DNA of 43,772 nucleotides from an uncultured Mailhella sp. (GTDB lineage: Bacteria; Desulfobacterota; Desulfovibrionia; Desulfovibrionales; Desulfovibrionaceae), in the NCBI GenBank assembly GCA_944322695.1, contig CALUPQ010000004.1:1-43772 (forward strand). The letters run 5' to 3'. The translations under genes were made by a program, and so were the position numbers. Every line of letters starts with the position of its first letter. Position 1 is the stretch's first letter. Below the pieces are notes generated by a model. That model was not told the DNA's origin. It did no database searches and was given only the letters and a program-made list of their open reading frames with translations. Positions 3,496 through 32,320 of the stretch are shown here, in pieces.

Positions 3496-5901
3496 ATGAC
3501 GGCAAGGCATATTTATACGGTGACAGGTCAGGTTCAGGGCGTGGGCTTTCGCCCCTTCATCTACCGGGAAGCCTCGAAACTGGGGCTGACGGGAAGTGTG
3601 GGCAACACCCCCGAAGGCGTACGCATAGAGGTTCAGGGAGAAGAAGAGGCCCTTGCGCTCTTTTCCTCCTTTCCCGAACGGGTACCGCCGCTGGCGCGCA
3701 TAGCATCCCTGACGCGAGAGGTCGCAGAACCGCTGCCGGACGAAAACGTCTTTCACATCCGCACCACGCACTCCGGCGCGCACCGGGGACACCGCGTGCT
3801 CGTCAGCCCGGACGTGGCCCCCTGCGACGCATGTCTTGCCGACATGGCCGAAAAGAGCAACCGCCGCTTCGGCTACGCCTTCACCAACTGCACGAACTGC
3901 GGTCCGCGCTACACCATCACCCGTTCCATCCCCTATGACAGGCCGGTGACCAGCATGGCCTGCTTTCCTCTGTGTCCCCCGTGCGCCGAAGAATATCACA
4001 ACCCGGCAGACCGACGTTTCCATGCCCAGCCCAACGCCTGCCCGGACTGCGGCCCCGTGCTCTGGCTGGAAGGGGCGGACGGAGTCCCCGGCATCGACCA
4101 GGAAGCCCCGGAAAAGCAGCGCGCCATGCAGGAAGAGCGCAGAAAGCGCTACGGCCTGCCGGAACATGCCGTCATGGGGAACGCCGCCATTCCCGCCCTG
4201 CTTGCCGCGCTGAAAAAAGGACGCATCGCAACCGTAAAAGGCCTCGGAGGTTTCCATCTGGTGTGCGATGCAGGGAACGCCGACGCCGTGGCGGAACTCC
4301 GCCGCCGGAAAAACCGCCCGCACAAGGCGCTCGCCGTCATGGTGGCGGACGTGGAAAGCGCGCGGCGCTTTGCCGTACTCAGCGAAGATGCGTGCAGACG
4401 CATCTCCTCGCCGAGACGCCCCATCGTCATCTGTCCCCGCCGTCAGGGAGCCCTGCCCGACATCCTTGCGCCGGACACATCAAGCATCGGGCTCATGCTG
4501 CCCTCCACGCCGCTTCATCATCTGCTCTTTCATCCCGAATGGACGGGCGGACGGAAGGAAGACGCCCTGCCCGCCCTTGTCATGACCTCCGGCAACCCCC
4601 ACGGAGCGCCCCTCTGCCTGGGCAACCGGGAAGCGCGGGAACGCCTCGGCGGCATGGCCGACCTATTTCTGTTCCACGACCGCGACATTCTCGTACGCGT
4701 GGACGATTCCGTGCTCTTTCCCGCCGACGACGTCCACCCCTCCCTCATGGTGCGCCGGGCGCGCGGTTTCGTTCCCGAACCCATGCCTCTGCCGGAAAGA
4801 CCGAACAGAAATGCCGTGGACTGCGTGTTCGCCGCCGGAGCGGAGCTCAAGCATACCTTCTGCCTCACCCGCGGGGGAGAAGCCTTCGTCAGTCAGCACA
4901 TCGGAGACGTAAGCAGAGCGGAAAGCCTCGCCTTTTTCGAAGAGACGCTGAAACACCTCCTCGCGCTTCTCGAAGTGGAACCGCGCCTTGTCGTGCGCGA
5001 CCTGCACCCGGACTACCTCTCCAGCCGTCTTGCGGACGAGTTCGCCCGTGAGCGGGGACTGCCGGAACTCCCGCTTCAGCACCATGCGGCCCACGTCTGC
5101 GCCGTCATGGCGGAACACGGCCGCACCTCTCCCGTGCTGGGGCTTGCGCTGGACGGCTCCGGCCTCGGAGACGACGGCACCGTCTGGGGCGGCGAACTTC
5201 TGCTTGTCCGGCCCGGAAGCTGGCAGCGTATCGGCCGTCTTTCCCCCTTTTCGCTGCCCGGCGGCGAAGCCGCCATACGTTCGCCGTGGCGGGTGGCCGA
5301 AGCGCTCCGGTACGCCTCCGGCCTGCCCGAAAGCTGCCGCCCCTGGCTTGCCGGCTCCCCCGAGAGGGCAAAACTCTCCCCCATGGTGGAGGAAATGCTG
5401 AAGCGTGACGTACGCTGCCTGCGCACGTCGAGCTGCGGCAGGCTCTTCGATGCCGTTTCCGCTCTTGCCGGACTATGCTTCGACGTCACCTACGAAGGTC
5501 AGGCTGCCATCAGGCTGGAAGAAGCGCAGGACTTCGGGGAAACGGGGGGCTACCGCCTGCCCGTGCTGGAAAGAAACGGCCTTCTGGAGGCGGACGCGGC
5601 GGAACTCTTCCGTCAGGCCGCCCGGGACGCAGCGCAGCCCGCGCGCCTTGCCAGGCGCTTCCACAAAGGCCTCGCCTGCGGTCTGGCCGCATGGGCGCGC
5701 GCCGCGGCAGACGGCACGGGCGTAACGGACGTGGCGCTGTGCGGCGGCGTGTTCAACAACCGTACGCTGCTGACGGAGCTGCCCGCCGAACTTCGCCGTC
5801 TCGGCCTTACCCCCCTGCTGCCCTCCCGCTTTCCGTCAGGAGACGGGGCCATCGCCCTCGGGCAGGCGCTGTGGGGAGACTGGTTCCTCGAAGAACAGTG
5901 A
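3496..5901 (+). CDS. hypF: Carbamoyltransferase HypF, [NiFe] hydrogenase maturation
   Basis: Cytoplasmic enzyme that turns carbamoyl phosphate and ATP into carbamoyl-adenylate and loads the carbamoyl group on HypE, the source of the cyanide ligands of [NiFe] hydrogenases. The 801-residue product shows the full domain order: acylphosphatase (1-92, VQGVGFRPF), two zinc fingers with CxxC pairs at Cys110/113, 132/135, 160/163 and 182/185, a YrdC-like domain (about 205-395, with HKALAVM), and a C-terminal Kae1-like domain with HHAAHVCAVMAEHG and LALDGSGLGDDGTVWGGE. GGAGG six bases before the ATG fixes the start. No other hyp gene is adjacent, so it stands apart from any maturation operon. Confidence 0.97.
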   Translation: MTARHIYTVTGQVQGVGFRPFIYREASKLGLTGSVGNTPEGVRIEVQGEEEALALFSSFPERVPPLARIASLTREVAEPLPDENVFHIRTTHSGAHRGHRVLVSPDVAPCDACLADMAEKSNRRFGYAFTNCTNCGPRYTITRSIPYDRPVTSMACFPLCPPCAEEYHNPADRRFHAQPNACPDCGPVLWLEGADGVPGIDQEAPEKQRAMQEERRKRYGLPEHAVMGNAAIPALLAALKKGRIATVKGLGGFHLVCDAGNADAVAELRRRKNRPHKALAVMVADVESARRFAVLSEDACRRISSPRRPIVICPRRQGALPDILAPDTSSIGLMLPSTPLHHLLFHPEWTGGRKEDALPALVMTSGNPHGAPLCLGNREARERLGGMADLFLFHDRDILVRVDDSVLFPADDVHPSLMVRRARGFVPEPMPLPERPNRNAVDCVFAAGAELKHTFCLTRGGEAFVSQHIGDVSRAESLAFFEETLKHLLALLEVEPRLVVRDLHPDYLSSRLADEFARERGLPELPLQHHAAHVCAVMAEHGRTSPVLGLALDGSGLGDDGTVWGGELLLVRPGSWQRIGRLSPFSLPGGEAAIRSPWRVAEALRYASGLPESCRPWLAGSPERAKLSPMVEEMLKRDVRCLRTSSCGRLFDAVSALAGLCFDVTYEGQAAIRLEEAQDFGETGGYRLPVLERNGLLEADAAELFRQAARDAAQPARLARRFHKGLACGLAAWARAAADGTGVTDVALCGGVFNNRTLLTELPAELRRLGLTPLLPSRFPSGDGAIALGQALWGDWFLEEQ

Positions 5902-6204
5902 ACTGGCAGCCTGCGGCCGCTTCCACCTCTTTACGGGCAGGTTCGACAAGCATGCTCCCGGCCGAGAGCCGCCGTTCTCTGCCATGACACAGGCCGCACG
6001 CCGGGGCTCTTCGGCCGGCTTCCTTCCGCATGAGCCTTCCGTAAAAAGGGGCGGGGCAGATAAGCACTTCTTCGACCAAGCCTCAAAACCTCCGCTGTCC
6101 GCACCTTTTTTTGCGCCTCCTCCAAAAAGATTCTGCCGCAAAATTTTTCCAGCATGTCAAAGAGGTTAAAAGCGCATGAGAAGAAGGGCTGGAGGTCTCC
6201 ATCC
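5902..6204. other. Non-coding stretch between hypF and the sahR promoter
   Basis: No convincing gene or hairpin terminator was found here. The part after about 6100 becomes AT-rich as it approaches the sahR promoter. Short open frames in this interval have neither ribosome-binding sites nor recognisable products. Confidence 0.6.
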
Positions 6205-6273: not shown

Positions 6274-7218
6274 ATGAAGGCTCTTCGATATTTTAAAGCC
6301 CTTTCGGATGAAACACGCCTGCGCCTCGCGCTGGTTCTTTTCCATTACGAGCTGTCCGTCAACGAGCTGGTCTCGCTTCTCGGCATGGGGCAGTCGCGCA
6401 TCTCCCGGCACCTCAAGATTCTGACCGAAGCCGGGATTCTCCAGTCACGCAGAGACGGCCTGTGGGTGTTCTATTCCGCCGAACCGGAAGGTCCGGGCCA
6501 TGAATTTCTCGCCGGCGTCATGCCCTTCATGCAGGATGACGACGTCTGCCGCGCGGACCTCGACATGGCTTCGCACATCATTGAGGAACGGGCGCTGAAG
6601 ACCCGGCAGTTCTTCAATGACATCGCCGACGACTGGGACGAGATGAACCGCGAAATTCTCGGCGACTTCTCCCTGCCGGACGTGATTCTGCACGCCGTGC
6701 CGGAAAACTGCGGCGTGGCCGCGGACCTCGGCTGCGGCACGGGCGAGGTGCTCGAACATCTGCGCGGCGCCTGCCGCGAGCTCATCGGCGTGGACGATTC
6801 CCCGCGCATGCTGGAGCTTGCGCGCCGCCGCTTCGGCGACAACATGAACGGCATTTCCCTGCGCATAGGCGAGCTCGACTACCTGCCCCTGCGCGATGGA
6901 GAGGCCGATTTCATCTGCATCAATCTTGTGCTGCATCACCTCTCCCGCCCCTCCATGTCTCTCGGGGAAATAGCCCGGGTGCTGCATCCGGGAGGGCTTG
7001 TTCTGGTGACGGATTTCGACCAGCACAGTCAGGAATCCATGCGCACCATGTACGGCGACCGCTGGCTCGGCTTCTCCCTGGACGAGCTTTCCGCGGCTCT
7101 GGTCAAAACCGGTCTCACCATCGTGGACTATCGCCGTCAGCCGGTAAAGAAAAATCTGGCGCTGCATCTCATACTGGCCCGCAAGAATGCCGCAGGCGCG
7201 GCTTCTTCCGCGCTGTGA
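6274..7218 (+). CDS. sahR: SahR-type regulator: ArsR HTH fused to SAM-methyltransferase domain
   Basis: Transcriptional regulator of the SAM/methionine cycle. SahR proteins are known in Proteobacteria as ArsR-family repressors that respond to S-adenosylhomocysteine. The 314-residue product has an ArsR winged helix at about 1-85 (ALSDETRLRLALVLF, then SRISRHLKILTEAGIL) and a class I methyltransferase fold after about residue 105, with motif I DLGCGTGE at 151-158, VDDSP at the end of the second strand and NLVLHHL. The domain is probably a ligand sensor rather than an enzyme. It is directly upstream of ahcY (39-base gap) behind one promoter, as in Desulfovibrio. The start has AGAAGG unusually close (2 bases). 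Confidence 0.88.
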   Translation: MKALRYFKALSDETRLRLALVLFHYELSVNELVSLLGMGQSRISRHLKILTEAGILQSRRDGLWVFYSAEPEGPGHEFLAGVMPFMQDDDVCRADLDMASHIIEERALKTRQFFNDIADDWDEMNREILGDFSLPDVILHAVPENCGVAADLGCGTGEVLEHLRGACRELIGVDDSPRMLELARRRFGDNMNGISLRIGELDYLPLRDGEADFICINLVLHHLSRPSMSLGEIARVLHPGGLVLVTDFDQHSQESMRTMYGDRWLGFSLDELSAALVKTGLTIVDYRRQPVKKNLALHLILARKNAAGAASSAL

Positions 7219-7257
7219 TCTCGTTTCAACATTCTGCCAACCTCTTATGGAGCTCTC

Positions 7258-8682
<1,425 letters not shown>

Positions 8683-26600: not shown

Positions 26601-26626
26601 AAAAAGGACGCGAACGGCTCGTTCAC
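26601..26626 (-). terminator. Possible terminator of the GNAT-radical SAM operon
   Basis: On the minus strand GTGAACG-AGC-CGTTCGC (7 bp including one wobble pair) is followed by GTCCTTTTTCCTTTT. It lies 54 bases after the GNAT stop. Confidence 0.45.
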
Positions 26627-26679
26627 GCCCTCTCTTTTTTGCGGCACTCCTTTCCGGGACAGAAAGCTCCGCATCCCCA

Positions 26680-27168
26680 TCAGGAAGGGAATGAAAGACG
26701 CATCTGATGCCAGGCCACGTCCCCGTGAGTAGAAGAGGAAAGTCCCTCGTCCACAAATCCGAAGGAGGCATAATAGGGAATGAGCCTCTCCTTGCAGGTA
26801 AGGACCACGCCCTTCTTTCCCCTTTCGCGCGACGCCTGAACCAGAGTTCTCACCAGCATGGCGGCATAACCTCTTCTGCGGTATTCGGGCAGCGTATTGA
26901 GACCGAACACCATCTGCCAGCAGCCGTCCGGCCTGTGCAGGGAAGCATCGGCATACATCTCGTCCCGCAGGTCCGGCTCGTCCGTGGCCATGCCGTCAAT
27001 GAAGGATACAAGACGCCCTTCCTCGAACAGAAGCCAGAAGCAGTCCGCATAGGACTCAAGCCTTGCTCTGAGCTCCTCTTCCGTGGCCGCCTCCTGCAAA
27101 GGAAAACAGCGTCTTTCCACTTCGGCGACGGCCGCAAGGTCGGCCATGGTCGCATGACGTATCAGCAT
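26680..27168 (-). CDS. GNAT family N-acetyltransferase
   Basis: Acetyl-CoA-dependent acetyltransferase with unknown acceptor. The 162-residue product has the GNAT order: an N-terminal MLIRHATMADLAAVAEVERR, the central strand FGLNTLPEYRRRGYAAMLV with the acetyl-CoA pyrophosphate loop RRRGYA, and the C-terminal IPYYASFGFVDEG. AAAGGA 9 bases upstream selects the ATG at 27168; an in-frame TTG immediately before it is unlikely to be used. It is the last gene of the operon with the radical SAM and TraB-GNAT genes (51-base gap). Linkage suggests it modifies a product of the other two. Confidence 0.85.
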   Translation of the reverse strand: MLIRHATMADLAAVAEVERRCFPLQEAATEEELRARLESYADCFWLLFEEGRLVSFIDGMATDEPDLRDEMYADASLHRPDGCWQMVFGLNTLPEYRRRGYAAMLVRTLVQASRERGKKGVVLTCKERLIPYYASFGFVDEGLSSSTHGDVAWHQMRLSFPS

Positions 27169-27219
27169 CAATCCATCCTTTCCGGCAAAGCCCTTGGGCC
27201 TGCCGCATTTTCCCCGCGA

Positions 27220-28266
27220 TTATCCCGCGCAGGGAGCTTCAAAACGTTTGGCACAGGAAACACAGGCTTCGGGCGGACACGCCGTCTGCACTCTGGCGCG
27301 AAAGTCCGCGTACTCCGCCTTATCCCATATGTCCACCGGACTTTGCTGAAGAACGTTGCCGAACACCGTGCGTCCGCGTTCCACCGCATTAATCGGCACG
27401 TTCAGATACACGCAGGGAGAAATCTGTCCCTCCGCATCCACGTACATGGTTCTGTGCGCCCTCTCCCGGCAGCACGGAGCCGGTTCAGGAGCCGGAAGCG
27501 AGGCGTAGAAATCGCGCCCGAGAGCGCGCACCTTTGCCCCCACATCCTCCAGCACCACGCGCGCGGCCTCAATCTTTTCCCTTTCATGAGGAGCGAAGGC
27601 CTCCTTCGCCATCTCGGGAGAAGGAATGTAGTCCATGGTGCTGATGACCGCCGCATGCACCCCCCAGTCCTCCATGAGCCCGGGCAGTCCCCGCACGGCC
27701 TCCACGCCGGAAGAAAGCATGAGATAGGCCAGGTGGATTTCCAGATGTACGGCATTCTTCTCCTGCCGCGCCTTCTGCAGAAGACGCACGGCTTCTTCCA
27801 CGCGGGAAAAGGGCACGTTCGCCCGCGCACTGTTGCTGACCTCGTCCGTTCCCGTCAGGGAAAAGGCCACGATGTCCATGCCGCTCTCCACAATGCGCCC
27901 GGCGAGCTCCTCATCCATGCGCAGCCCGCAGGTCGTGGTGGACACGGCGCACCCGGCCTTTCTTGCCAGAGAGACGAAATCCATGAAATGCGGGTTCAGG
28001 AAAGGTTCGCCCCAGCCCTGCAGGTGCACGCGCCGTGCCTTGAGCAGCACGGGCCAGAGCGCGGCAAAGGTTTCGGGCGCCATGTGACGGCTCTTCCATT
28101 CGCCGGAGCGCGTGGTATGCGGGCAATAGGTGCATTTTCCCATGCAGCAGGAAGTCACTTCCACCTGCAGGCACTCCAGCGGCCGCGGATGAAAAAACTC
28201 CCTCACATCCTGCCACAGGCCTGGCCCGCGAAACTGCGCAAACAACCGTTCCACATCAGATGCCAT
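27220..28266 (-). CDS. Radical SAM protein with SPASM-like C-terminus
   Basis: Iron-sulfur enzyme generating a 5'-deoxyadenosyl radical. The 348-residue product has the CxxxCxxC cluster motif at Cys41, Cys45 and Cys48, then HLQGWGEPFLNP, the typical GGEP-like SAM contact, STTTCG and FSLTG. The C-terminal third has seven more cysteines: Cys265, 266, 285 (ISPCVYLN), 330, 335, 338 and 346. This is a SPASM/twitch-like arrangement for extra clusters, as in peptide-modifying enzymes and anaerobic sulfatase-maturating enzymes. GGAGGAG precedes the ATG. Only 12 bases separate it from the 888-residue TraB-GNAT gene, so the two almost certainly act together. The substrate is unknown. Confidence 0.85.
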   Translation of the reverse strand: MASDVERLFAQFRGPGLWQDVREFFHPRPLECLQVEVTSCCMGKCTYCPHTTRSGEWKSRHMAPETFAALWPVLLKARRVHLQGWGEPFLNPHFMDFVSLARKAGCAVSTTTCGLRMDEELAGRIVESGMDIVAFSLTGTDEVSNSARANVPFSRVEEAVRLLQKARQEKNAVHLEIHLAYLMLSSGVEAVRGLPGLMEDWGVHAAVISTMDYIPSPEMAKEAFAPHEREKIEAARVVLEDVGAKVRALGRDFYASLPAPEPAPCCRERAHRTMYVDAEGQISPCVYLNVPINAVERGRTVFGNVLQQSPVDIWDKAEYADFRARVQTACPPEACVSCAKRFEAPCAG

Positions 28267-28278
28267 GATTCTCCTCCC

Positions 28279-30945
28279 CTAAACCATCCAGCTCGTTTCC
28301 AGATGCGGCATGGACTCGAAGGCGCCCCACTTCTTCTTGAAGAAGGTAATGCCTCCGTCTATGCCGAGGCCGAGGTTCAGCACCGTCTGCCCCCGCTTGC
28401 CGGCCTCTTCCGCCAGCTCATGCAAAAGAGCGTCGCTCACGCCGGGCGGACAGTCGTCATGCCGGAAGGCGAACATGTAGAACGCCGTGCCGAGGGCGCT
28501 GTAATCGCCCACGGCCATGGCAAGCAGCCTGCCCGAAGGGTTGCGCGCGGCAAAGAGCACGGCGTCTGGAGAGCTTTTCACATACGTCCCCACTCGGCCG
28601 AAAATATGCCGCGTGCCCGGAGCGAGGGTTCGCACCTTGAGATAATGGTCCACCAGCGCGTCGTGCTCCGGCCCCCATTCCTCCACGGACACGACGGCCT
28701 CGCGTTCCGCCCGGCGCAGCATGTTGCGCAGCTTCTGCCCGGGGGTATGCGGAAGATTCACGCACCACCACGCGTCGCGCTCCACCACGGCCTGTGCCGG
28801 AGCCGAGGAAGGAATGGCCGCGGCCAGAACCGTGATGCGCCGGAGATTCGGCATGGCAAGCGCACAGGCCACGGCCTTCTCAAGCCGCTCCTCATAGGCT
28901 GCGCCGGCGACGCCGCAGACGGAAAGCTCGTCCTGGGCGGGAAAGGCCACAAGGGTGCAGCTGTCCTCCGTGGTCCATGCCGCAAAGCCCTCGCAGGAAC
29001 GAAGCGTTCTGCCGGACACGGGCCGCACGTAGGAAGGAATCTGCTCCGGAACAATGGCCCGGGCGCCGAGGTCGGCAAGCTGGCGGCCGGAAGAGGGACC
29101 GTGCATGGCCGTCCGGCCGGAATGCGAAGCCGAAACTTCCCGCTCCAGCGCGGAGGAGCGCACGTTTTCCGGAGCCTTTTCCCACACGGGAGCATCGGGA
29201 TTGCCGGGCAGCACCACGGAATCGTCACGGCGAATCCAGGCCGAAAAGCGATGCTTCATCGTCGGCAGCACGCGCGTGACGGTAAAGCCGTCCTCGGCCA
29301 GCATGTTCCGCAGATTTATCATGTGGGCCGCTCCCACGAACACTGCCGTGCCGCCCCGCTCGATATAGGGACGCATGCGCTCGCGGAAGCGCTGGTCGCG
29401 CACGCTGATGATGGTTCCCGTACGGGTGGGGAACTCGGCGCTCGTGCCCATCATGCCCATGAGGTCCCCGGCCAAGTATCGCGAACAGTTGCTTTTCATG
29501 AGCTTCGGCCAGAAGGAGCAGTCCTTCATGAACTTCACGATACGCGGCATGGGCGCGGATTCCAGCGAGGCTATCTGTTCGGCAAGGCTTTCCATGCCCA
29601 TGACGGACTTGCCCATGTCCAGCGCTATGTTCCACACCTCAAGGTCCACGGAATTCGTCCAGCCGTTGCGCTCAAGATAGGCCGTCCAGAGGGAGAAGAA
29701 GGCGTACCACTGGCGGCTTTCGGCAAGGACCTTGCGCACGTCGATGGTGCGCTCCTTCTGAAATCCCGCCAGTTTCGCCCAGAAGCCCTCCGGGCCGTAA
29801 ACCGTACGCTCGAGACGGCAAATCTCCTCCTCGGAAAGAAACTGCGCCACGCGCGGGGCGTCCGGCTCCGGCGTGCGGCCTATGCGGGCCACCTCGTCCA
29901 TGCTGTCGGAATCTATGGGGCCCTCCAGAAGCACGGTGTCCACCTGCTCGAAAAGACGACGCAGGGAATGCTCGAAGGAATAGCAGAAAAAGTGGGCGGA
30001 ACCGCCTATCCACGACGTACGGCCGTTCTTGTCCAGCCGCCAGAGCATGGCGCAGGGGCGCTGCTTGGGCAGAGAGTCGAAAAACTTCCAGCGAGAAATC
30101 TCCTGCCCCCCGGAAGAGGCCATGTTCATGGCCAGCAGCGCGGCCATGTCGGAAAGCGCGGCCTTCGCTCCGTGTCCGGCGGAAGGCTGCCATACCGCAA
30201 GGCGGTACGGAGCGCTCTCCACGCCGCCCCACTTGCGCTTGAAGCGGGTGATGCCCTCGTTCACGCCGAGCCCGAGCAGGATGGAGTCCTTTCCTTCGGC
30301 GCGGGCCCTCTCCAGCATTTCGGCGAAAAGCAAATCCGGCGCATGAGGCACGTAATGGGCTTTGGAATGGGCGCCCAGCACGTAGCTTACCTGATGCGGC
30401 AGGGAATAATCCAGGAGCAGGCAGGCTGCGAGCTGCCCTTCGGCATCCCAGGCGTTGAGCAGACGTATGTCCGCATCGCCTGCAAGAGCGGCGGCCGTTC
30501 CCGAATAAAGCTGACGTATGCGCGGAGGCAGAGGAAGACGCCCCATGAACTCCGCCCACAAACGCCGGTGCTCCGACGTGAAGACGCGCGTCTCATCCAC
30601 CACGAGGCGCTCGCGAGCATGGCGCACCGGCCCGCGCAGGCGGGAAGGCACGGGAGCGGCGGCATCGAGCGTGTAGTACACGTCGCTGTCCTGCACGTAT
30701 TCCTTCAGGTGTTCCGGCATCTGCGGCGCAATGGCAAAGCAGTCTTCGGGCTTCACTCGCCGCATGGCCTCCTCCAGAGCAGCCTCAAAGCGCCGGGTGG
30801 AGAACTCGCCTTCCAGCGGATAGCCTATGGCCATGAGCCAGTCGTCCGCCGCAACGAAGACATGGCCGTCCACCTCGAAGGAACGGCCGTGGGAAAGAGC
30901 TTCCAGCAGAGGACGGGAATGTTCGGGAACAGAGACTTCGGGCAT
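28279..30945 (-). CDS. Three-domain GNAT/FemAB-like - TraB/GumN-like - GNAT/FemAB-like protein
   Basis: An 888-residue protein with an unusual build. Residues 1-255 are a GNAT/FemAB- or DUF2156-like acyltransferase domain ending in LGLGVNEGITRFKRKWGG (224-241). Residues 297-570 resemble the TraB/PrgY/GumN family, linked to Tiki-type metalloproteases: WIGGSAHFF (312-320, GSAH motif), LLEGP (339-343) and VFVGAAHM (535-542). Residues 640-888 are a second acyltransferase-like domain with LGLGIDGGITFFKKKWGA (858-875), clearly related to the first. No signal peptide or transmembrane helix is apparent. AAGGAG precedes the chosen ATG; the open frame extends to 31182 in non-coding sequence. Domain assignments are by motif recognition; the cellular role is unknown. 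Confidence 0.75.
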   Translation of the reverse strand: MPEVSVPEHSRPLLEALSHGRSFEVDGHVFVAADDWLMAIGYPLEGEFSTRRFEAALEEAMRRVKPEDCFAIAPQMPEHLKEYVQDSDVYYTLDAAAPVPSRLRGPVRHARERLVVDETRVFTSEHRRLWAEFMGRLPLPPRIRQLYSGTAAALAGDADIRLLNAWDAEGQLAACLLLDYSLPHQVSYVLGAHSKAHYVPHAPDLLFAEMLERARAEGKDSILLGLGVNEGITRFKRKWGGVESAPYRLAVWQPSAGHGAKAALSDMAALLAMNMASSGGQEISRWKFFDSLPKQRPCAMLWRLDKNGRTSWIGGSAHFFCYSFEHSLRRLFEQVDTVLLEGPIDSDSMDEVARIGRTPEPDAPRVAQFLSEEEICRLERTVYGPEGFWAKLAGFQKERTIDVRKVLAESRQWYAFFSLWTAYLERNGWTNSVDLEVWNIALDMGKSVMGMESLAEQIASLESAPMPRIVKFMKDCSFWPKLMKSNCSRYLAGDLMGMMGTSAEFPTRTGTIISVRDQRFRERMRPYIERGGTAVFVGAAHMINLRNMLAEDGFTVTRVLPTMKHRFSAWIRRDDSVVLPGNPDAPVWEKAPENVRSSALEREVSASHSGRTAMHGPSSGRQLADLGARAIVPEQIPSYVRPVSGRTLRSCEGFAAWTTEDSCTLVAFPAQDELSVCGVAGAAYEERLEKAVACALAMPNLRRITVLAAAIPSSAPAQAVVERDAWWCVNLPHTPGQKLRNMLRRAEREAVVSVEEWGPEHDALVDHYLKVRTLAPGTRHIFGRVGTYVKSSPDAVLFAARNPSGRLLAMAVGDYSALGTAFYMFAFRHDDCPPGVSDALLHELAEEAGKRGQTVLNLGLGIDGGITFFKKKWGAFESMPHLETSWMV

Positions 30946-31507: not shown

Positions 31508-32320
31508 ATGTCCAATCTTCTGTCCATCCTGCTTGTTCTCGTCTGCGGCGGTTCGCTGGTGGGACTGCTCTCCGGCCTCTTCGGCATAGGCGGGGCGCTC
31601 ATCATCGTCCCTCTGCTCAACATTCTCTTCACCCACATGGGCATACCGGAATCCATGGTGCAGCACCTTGCCGTAGGAACCGCACCTTCCACCATGCTCG
31701 TCACATGCTTCACCACTTTTCTCGCCCACGCACGCATGGGCTCCATGAGCTGGGAGGCCTGGAAAAAGATGACGCCCGGCATCGTGGCCGGCTCCATCTG
31801 CGGAGCCCTGCTCGCACACGTCATCGACGGGCGCACGCTGGAAACGCTCTTCGGCGTCATCATCGTCATCATGGGCATACAGATGCTTGTGGGCTTCACG
31901 CCCAAGCCGCACGCCTTCATGAAGAAGCTCTATGTTCCCGTGAGTCTGTTCATCGGCATGCTGGCCAGCATGACCGGCGTGGCAGGTTCCCTTCAGCTCA
32001 TCATATTTCTGGCCTGGGCGGGCTACGCCTGGTGCGACTGCGTGGGTACCTCCGCAGCGCTGACTCTGCCCATTACCCTCACCTCCACCATAAGCTACAT
32101 GATTGTCGGCTGGAATGCCCCCTCGCTTCCCGAGTACTCCCTCGGCTACGTCTATCTTCCCGGCACGCTGGCCCTCATGATTCCGGGCATGATTATGGCC
32201 GTCGTCGGCGCAAAGCTCGCCCACTGGTCGAACCTGCCTACCGGCCTGCTCAAACGGGGGTTTGCGCTGTTCGGCATAGGCGTCGGCATCTCCATTCTCT
32301 GCAGAACGCTGGGCGCCTAG
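31508..32320 (+). CDS. TauE/SafE family sulfite/organosulfur anion exporter
   Basis: Inner-membrane permease of the TauE/SafE (DUF81) family; characterised members export sulfite, sulfoacetate or related anions. The 270-residue product has about eight hydrophobic helices arranged as two repeats, with the first-repeat motif GLLSGLFGIGGALIIVPLL and second-repeat GMLASMTGVAGSLQLIIFLA, the family hallmark. No ribosome-binding site is evident before this ATG; a structured leader stands upstream. In a sulfur-metabolising organism sulfite export is plausible, but the substrate is not shown by the sequence. Confidence 0.88.
   Translation: MSNLLSILLVLVCGGSLVGLLSGLFGIGGALIIVPLLNILFTHMGIPESMVQHLAVGTAPSTMLVTCFTTFLAHARMGSMSWEAWKKMTPGIVAGSICGALLAHVIDGRTLETLFGVIIVIMGIQMLVGFTPKPHAFMKKLYVPVSLFIGMLASMTGVAGSLQLIIFLAWAGYAWCDCVGTSAALTLPITLTSTISYMIVGWNAPSLPEYSLGYVYLPGTLALMIPGMIMAVVGAKLAHWSNLPTGLLKRGFALFGIGVGISILCRTLGA

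Follow-up and report, generated by a model that had tools for sequence, protein, structure and literature searches.

The genes analyzed here form a run of three on the minus strand of a 43,772-nt stretch of DNA (the window; contig CALUPQ010000004.1 of assembly GCA_944322695.1) from an uncultured Mailhella sp., the source genome being a Mailhella-like Desulfovibrionaceae draft of 2.27 Mb in 206 contigs that is 77% complete. The first gene (28279-30945), delineated from its open reading frame (ORF), translation and Pfam matches, encodes an 888-residue fusion protein in which a TraB hydrolase domain is flanked by two double-GNAT transferase domains; its ATG start codon is preceded by AAGGAG, and homologues beginning with the VPEH block back this start. 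The second (27220-28266) encodes a 348-residue radical S-adenosylmethionine (SAM) protein, identified by PF04055 (6.7e-17), PF13186 (2.8e-9) and its adjacency to the fusion gene in relatives, and the third (26680-27168, start ATG at 27168) a stand-alone GNAT protein of 162 residues with a Pfam Acetyltransf_1 match. Gaps of 12 bases (fusion to radical SAM gene) and 51 bases (radical SAM to GNAT gene) separate the genes, each of which is preceded by a Shine-Dalgarno-like sequence; upon re-checking, the coordinates, gaps and ribosome-binding sites given in an earlier note on this DNA proved correct. Beyond the third gene, direct reading of the minus strand revealed an inverted repeat at 26601-26630 (11-bp stem with two G.U pairs, loop AGC, followed by TTTTT), which looks like a terminator hairpin and would fit a transcription terminator of the three-gene run.

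Conservation of the module and its gene architectures

A scan of 84,980 species genomes returned 32 loci, all of them from Desulfobacterota or Nitrospirota. The radical SAM gene is located directly downstream in 27 of the 32 loci (including contig-cut copies and the remnant in L018), and for four more a radical SAM homologue is encoded elsewhere in the same genome (L024, L026, L027 and L029, with 491, 317, 495 and 488 bits, respectively; L026 belongs to the cultured sulfate reducer Desulfobulbus alkaliphilus DSM 24258); locus L012 stops at a contig edge. The earlier note had raised the possibility that the two genes might rarely be adjacent in relatives; instead, their pairing is conserved. 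The fusion gene and its radical SAM neighbour are a genuine module; conservation across two phyla excludes chance. In L018 (2733-3095), a 49-residue radical SAM fragment follows the transferase genes while no good homologue was found elsewhere in that genome, possibly reflecting gene decay.

The architecture of the module varies among relatives. L031/L044, L058, L059 and L061-L063 have one gene per part (GNAT1, TraB, GNAT2 and radical SAM, in this order); a GNAT1-TraB fusion together with GNAT2 and the radical SAM gene occurs in most Desulfobacterales, Syntrophobacterales and other Desulfovibrionaceae; and the full GNAT1-TraB-GNAT2 fusion is encountered in Mailhella and L012. Among Nitrospirota, L096 and L098-L100 have their parts reordered or the TraB gene doubled, and the GNAT1-TraB fusion of L105, judging by the tree, arose independently. 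The tree further identifies GNAT1 and GNAT2 as ancient paralogues that were retained as a pair. The GNAT family is present in 25 of 297 genomes of the phylum, mostly with two copies per locus, in 17 of 119 genomes of the window's own family and in 11 of 245 Nitrospirota genomes. At L045 (G052 C10, 5453-7429), a 659-residue frame unites GNAT1 with a partial TraB domain and a C-terminal stretch of radical SAM sequence that lacks the CxxxCxxC region, and represents a deletion chimera, a remnant or a misassembly.

The stand-alone GNAT gene, which the earlier note had counted as third member of the system, was rejected as such: it neighbours only L002-L006 and L010, which are six Mailhella-type loci, and none of the others. 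It is a lineage-specific passenger in the operon and lies outside the conserved module. Divergently oriented upstream of the fusion gene is a TauE/SafE gene (sulfite exporter family; 31508-32320, plus strand); it was likewise dismissed as a module partner, given that the equivalent gap in the relative L003 is too small to hold such a gene. Elsewhere in the window (6274-8682, plus strand), a fused ArsR regulator-methyltransferase gene is followed by one for S-adenosylhomocysteine hydrolase.

Domains of the fusion protein and the radical SAM enzyme

The central domain 2 (residues 300-558; 29272-30048, minus strand) was assigned as a TraB/Tiki hydrolase domain based on PF01963 and invariant motifs. 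The TraB_PrgY_gumN profile (PF01963) is matched from position 1 to 263 of 263 with 109 bits (cut-off 26.8; E = 4e-31). Residues G315 and H318 of the GSAH motif (315-318), E341, and G538 and H541 of the GAAH motif (538-541) are invariant in 44 of 44 aligned sequences; the two GxxH motifs and the glutamate we take to be the catalytic or putative metal-site residues of the TraB/GumN (Tiki) family. Judged by these motifs, the domain is probably a metal-dependent hydrolase. A fold search with a model of residues 1-575 was uninformative on the TraB fold, as the matches listed were all GNAT proteins and included no solved TraB relative.

Domain 1 (residues 1-255; 30181-30945, minus strand; model m4bf7851e61ae) and domain 3 (residues 620-888; 28282-29088, minus strand; model m99245f183819) are homologous to each other at about 23-30% identity, domain 3 carrying the motif LGLG...FFKKKWG and being placed by fold matches and tree as an ancient paralogue of domain 1. 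Residues 106-236 match Acetyltransf_6 (PF13480) with 35.7 bits at a cut-off of 22 (Pfam); searches of PDB sequences with the fusion and with the GNAT profile returned nothing useful. Each outer unit is built from two GNAT lobes, and the models align over about 240-255 residues with FemX, MprF and Sbb17 (VIA Z 16-19). For domain 3, modelled as a double GNAT with a mean pLDDT (a per-residue model confidence score) of 95.8, the best whole-length fold matches were 2hqy, Sbb17, Sba18, FemX and MprF (VIA Z 16-19), 2hqy being a Bacteroides protein without known function. The list for domain 1 was the same, with Sbb17 at the top (VIA Z 19.1) and FemX at 18.3. The acetyl-CoA enzyme VipF matched the outer domains at lower scores (Z 14.8-15.6; 14.8 for domain 3), and leucyl/phenylalanyl-tRNA-protein transferase (LF-transferase) was also among the GNAT-fold matches (Z ~13).

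In both outer units, the Phe-Lys of an FFKxKW motif is invariant and precedes the last strand of the model. In FemX (Lys305) and DhpH-C (Phe328-Lys329), a lysine following phenylalanine is essential (PMC12945691), making the Phe-Lys of the outer units a candidate counterpart of FemX Lys305, an equivalence derived from motif and position and not from residue-level superposition. Because the FemX, Sbb17 and MprF fold matches surpass that of VipF and the Phe-Lys is invariant, the outer domains are probably aminoacyl-tRNA-dependent transferases rather than acetyltransferases, to the extent that fold and motif can tell. This refines the earlier description of a TraB domain between two related acyltransferase domains: profile and fold checks bore out the layout, the mutual homology and, strongly, the TraB match, while the plain acetyltransferase type gave way to double-GNAT domains closer to Sbb17/Sba18, FemX and MprF. 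The rival view, that ordinary coenzyme A-dependent acetyl- or acyltransferases became fused by chance to TraB beside an unrelated radical SAM gene, can invoke the Pfam labelling of the outer domains as acetyltransferases and the matches to VipF and other tandem GNATs (Z ~15). Its chance component is contradicted by the persistence of the four parts across two phyla in split, half-fused and fused form, with repeated fusion. A chance association of ordinary acetyltransferases is unlikely, and we give this view as a whole very little credence.

In the radical SAM protein, alignment of homologues showed the CxxxCxxC motif (C41, C45, C48; 28123-28146, minus strand) to be invariant. The C-terminal auxiliary-cluster region (27253-27471, minus strand) does contain seven cysteines, as noted earlier; only C266, C285, C335 and C338 are invariant, in close homologues and the wider subfamily alike. 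PF13186 (SPASM) scores above cut-off even though seven auxiliary cysteines are not conserved, so that the count of cysteines and the radical SAM-SPASM assignment of the earlier note stand, but a seven-cysteine SPASM enzyme was ruled out. Instead, the region would fit a twitch-type enzyme with a single auxiliary cluster. In one family (f20; L053, L061, L062, L063), the cassette is immediately preceded by the gene for a conserved 61-residue ferredoxin-like protein, which might supply the radical SAM enzyme with electrons.

The nearest NCBIfam families are TIGR04311 (rSAM_Geo_metal; 116 bits) and TIGR04317 (tungsten-oxidoreductase radical SAM maturase; 114.5 bits), both far under their cut-offs of 400 and 380 bits, respectively; with a score that far beneath the equivalog cut-off, the TIGR04317 identity was not adopted. 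That these are the best NCBIfam matches, and that L060/L118, L076-L078 and L117 have NifU- and NifS-like genes among the neighbours of the radical SAM gene, might suggest maturation of a metalloenzyme or cofactor, with the radical SAM protein acting as maturase for an enzyme or cofactor of the sulfur pathway and the other domains being auxiliary. We consider this quite unlikely, in view of the low scores and since it leaves two conserved double-GNAT transferases and a hydrolase unexplained.

Association with dsrA and sulfur transport genes

Among the 297 genomes of the phylum, dsrA (called by TIGR02064) is present in 143. When radical SAM homologues were counted from 260 bits upward, a line drawn after seeing a gap in the score list, dsrA occurred in 47 of 50 genomes with such a homologue versus 96 of 247 others; by genus, the figures were 33 of 36 versus 60 of 163, both comparisons being made with statistics that ignore shared ancestry. 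Genomes with the GNAT family behaved similarly (22 of 25 with dsrA; 16 of 19 by genus, again ignoring ancestry). Outside this sample, dsrA was detected in all 15 other Desulfobacterota carriers checked, one by a partial match only, and it is present in five of seven related Mailhella genomes.

Parts of the cassette are located near or beside dsr genes in three genomes (L118, L117, L116). In G177, the order is GNAT, radical SAM, YeiH, NifU-like, NifS-like, dsrA, dsrB, dsrD, dsrN, dsrC, dsrM and dsrK, the dsr names other than dsrA (TIGR02064) resting at these loci on reading of translations and gene order; this locus lacks an adjacent TraB gene, the second GNAT gene being located elsewhere. G125 agrees with G177 in gene order as far as dsrA, at which point the contig ends, and in G081 a complete four-gene cassette plus YeiH lies a few kilobases from dsr genes. 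Another sulfur-related neighbour is the TusA-YedE pair, which adjoins or lies near parts of the module at L058 and L119: TusA and a YedE-type sulfur transporter directly border the complete cassette of G062, and G245 has the pair near its radical SAM gene and YeiH. NifU-like and NifS-like genes also follow the YeiH-radical SAM pair in L076-L078, L060/L118 and L117, in L118 and L117 leading straight into dsrA.

Of the 50 genomes with a radical SAM homologue of at least 260 bits, 17 have a YeiH-type transporter (PF03601, 'putative sulfate exporter') no more than 5 kb from the radical SAM gene, against an expected number of about 0.1. This proximity is seen in several orientations and extends to transferase-free genomes, and neighbourhood clustering outside Mailhella returned YeiH as the sole constant partner. 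At L081, genes for YeiH, a universal-stress-like protein and the radical SAM protein stand in a row. Recurrent neighbours of YeiH and the cassette at L016 (ORFs at 5028-5318 and 5392-5970), L046, L050 and L109 are small membrane-like proteins (96 and about 192-201 residues) that match no Pfam family. We also noted YeiH-type transporters near dsrAB without adjacent radical SAM or GNAT/TraB genes (L120, L121, L122, L123, L128). Taken together, dissimilatory sulfur metabolism as the context of the cassette is better supported than the chemistry proposed below.

Proposed function and relation to known systems

The dsr pathway is a major form of anaerobic respiration whose core enzymes have been studied for decades. 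We tentatively propose that the fusion protein and the radical SAM enzyme constitute a four-part module that serves dissimilatory sulfite/sulfate reduction by tRNA-dependent aminoacylation and radical tailoring, a proposal to which we assign somewhat less than an even chance. Each of the two double-GNAT domains would draw an amino acid from an aminoacyl-tRNA and join it via an amide bond to an acceptor, candidates for which are small amines, amino acids or peptides, and protein ends. With its one auxiliary cluster, the radical SAM enzyme would introduce a radical modification into the product or an intermediate, the TraB/Tiki domain may cut an amide bond, thereby trimming or releasing the product, and in many species the neighbouring YeiH-type transporter might move the product or a linked sulfur oxyanion. 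A further-reaching version, possible but rather doubtful at present, is that of an unrecognised biosynthetic pathway dedicated to dissimilatory sulfur metabolism, in which tRNA-derived amino acids on a carrier, a dsr-associated radical SAM enzyme and Tiki/TraB-mediated release would give rise to a new molecule, be it a cofactor, a sulfur carrier or an exported metabolite, that sulfite-respiring bacteria use.

The acceptor may also be a protein. In that case, the module would modify a protein of sulfite reduction, such as DsrC or the transporter, adding amino acids to an amine in the manner of LF-transferase; the radical enzyme would introduce a further change, and TraB would serve as maturation protease. 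The appearance of LF-transferase among the fold matches, the dsr genes near or beside cassette parts and the lack of a co-encoded precursor gene, the acceptor perhaps being encoded elsewhere, would all agree with this alternative. Nevertheless, the double-GNAT matches to FemX and Sbb17 are clearly higher than that to LF-transferase, YeiH is a more widespread neighbour than dsr genes are, and the target is hypothetical, so that we regard protein modification as rather unlikely.

Since the best structural matches include MprF catalytic domains and FemX, the module might also act on the envelope, attaching amino acids to a lipid head group or to a cell-wall precursor, with radical tailoring, as a protection against sulfide, sulfite or other stress; radical SAM enzymes able to modify lipids are known (PMC11186832). 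Yet the fusion displays no membrane domain, conserved envelope genes were not seen near the loci, and the association is with sulfur genes, which makes envelope modification unlikely in our assessment. The earlier note had envisaged processing of a peptide or an envelope precursor. The hydrolase motifs and the peptide-type chemistry are in line with its idea, but a conserved precursor peptide, for which the note suggested looking, was not found near the cassette, and sulfur metabolism as the context had not been considered. A ribosomally synthesized and post-translationally modified peptide (RiPP) with a co-encoded precursor was rejected, the sole conserved short ORF being that of the 61-residue ferredoxin in one family.

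Several observations weigh against tRNA-dependent aminoacylation in the service of sulfite reduction. No acceptor, precursor peptide or product has been assigned to the module, and, save for the ferredoxin, conservation of the short ORFs near the cassette does not reach past close relatives, although a precursor may be encoded at a distance. As to the chemistry, a shared fold is no proof of a tRNA donor, given that acetyl-CoA-dependent tandem-GNAT relatives such as VipF match too, and the LPG_synthase_C match (PF09924) of fusion residues 736-860 remains, with 21.4 bits, under the Pfam gathering cut-off of 27.5. As to the context, the dsrA counts must be read with the caveat on ancestry given above; dsrA was not found in the window's own, incomplete draft genome, and neither a dsr nor a YeiH gene was seen adjacent to the Mailhella cassette. 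Nitrospirota show no dsrA enrichment (7 of 11 carriers versus 9 of 20 cassette-negative genomes), and four carriers, whose genome completeness is not established, show no dsrA. Many radical SAM homologues occur in genomes without a GNAT/TraB partner, and many dsrA genomes lack the module, so that sulfite reduction can do without it.

The close tracking of dsrA by this radical SAM subfamily (33 of 36 genera), together with its coupling to a YeiH-type transporter and, in many genomes, to two probable tRNA-dependent transferases and a hydrolase of the Tiki type, would indicate that dsr physiology contains a step or molecule not yet recognised. Since related species offer the module in fused, half-fused and split form, with and without transferases, its function is accessible to testing in sulfate reducers.

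The enzymes are of known kinds, while their combination and context are undescribed in the literature searched. The earlier note knew of no described system with this set, and we found none in the open-licence papers searched, an account elsewhere being possible, nor among the NCBIfam equivalogs. The outer domains share with Sbb17/Sba18 (streptothricin-type aminoacyl-tRNA-dependent peptide synthases) and FemX (FemABX) the whole-length double-GNAT fold (Z 17-19) and have, as a candidate counterpart of the FemX lysine, an invariant Phe-Lys near the C-terminal end. They differ from these proteins in their low sequence identity (about 11-17%), the fusion of two paralogous units around a hydrolase, a tRNA donor that is putative here, and surroundings in which no antibiotic or peptidoglycan genes were seen near the cassette. 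The catalytic domain of MprF, the aminoacyl-phosphatidylglycerol synthase (LPG_synthase_C, DUF2156), has the fold in common with the fusion at weak sequence likeness (PF09924, below the Pfam cut-off), but the fusion is devoid of the transmembrane flippase domain. With TraB/GumN (Tiki) proteins (PF01963), the central domain shares the full-length match and both GxxH motifs, here sandwiched by two transferase domains. TIGR04317 and TIGR04311, the nearest named radical SAM families, resemble the cassette enzyme across most of the length, whereas that enzyme keeps other gene company and has four conserved auxiliary cysteines. Some graspetide RiPP loci pair a SPASM radical SAM maturase with a Tiki/TraB peptidase (PMC8939145), a combination that recurs in the cassette, there without ATP-grasp ligase or conserved precursor peptide. 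Finally, DVU0542-DVU0545 of Desulfovibrio vulgaris form an operon for a PSE-family transporter and universal stress proteins, with a molybdate phenotype and an unsettled role (PMC10102598); the description of this cluster includes neither a radical SAM nor a transferase gene, but its pairing of a PSE-family (YeiH-like) transporter with universal stress proteins resembles the arrangement at L081.

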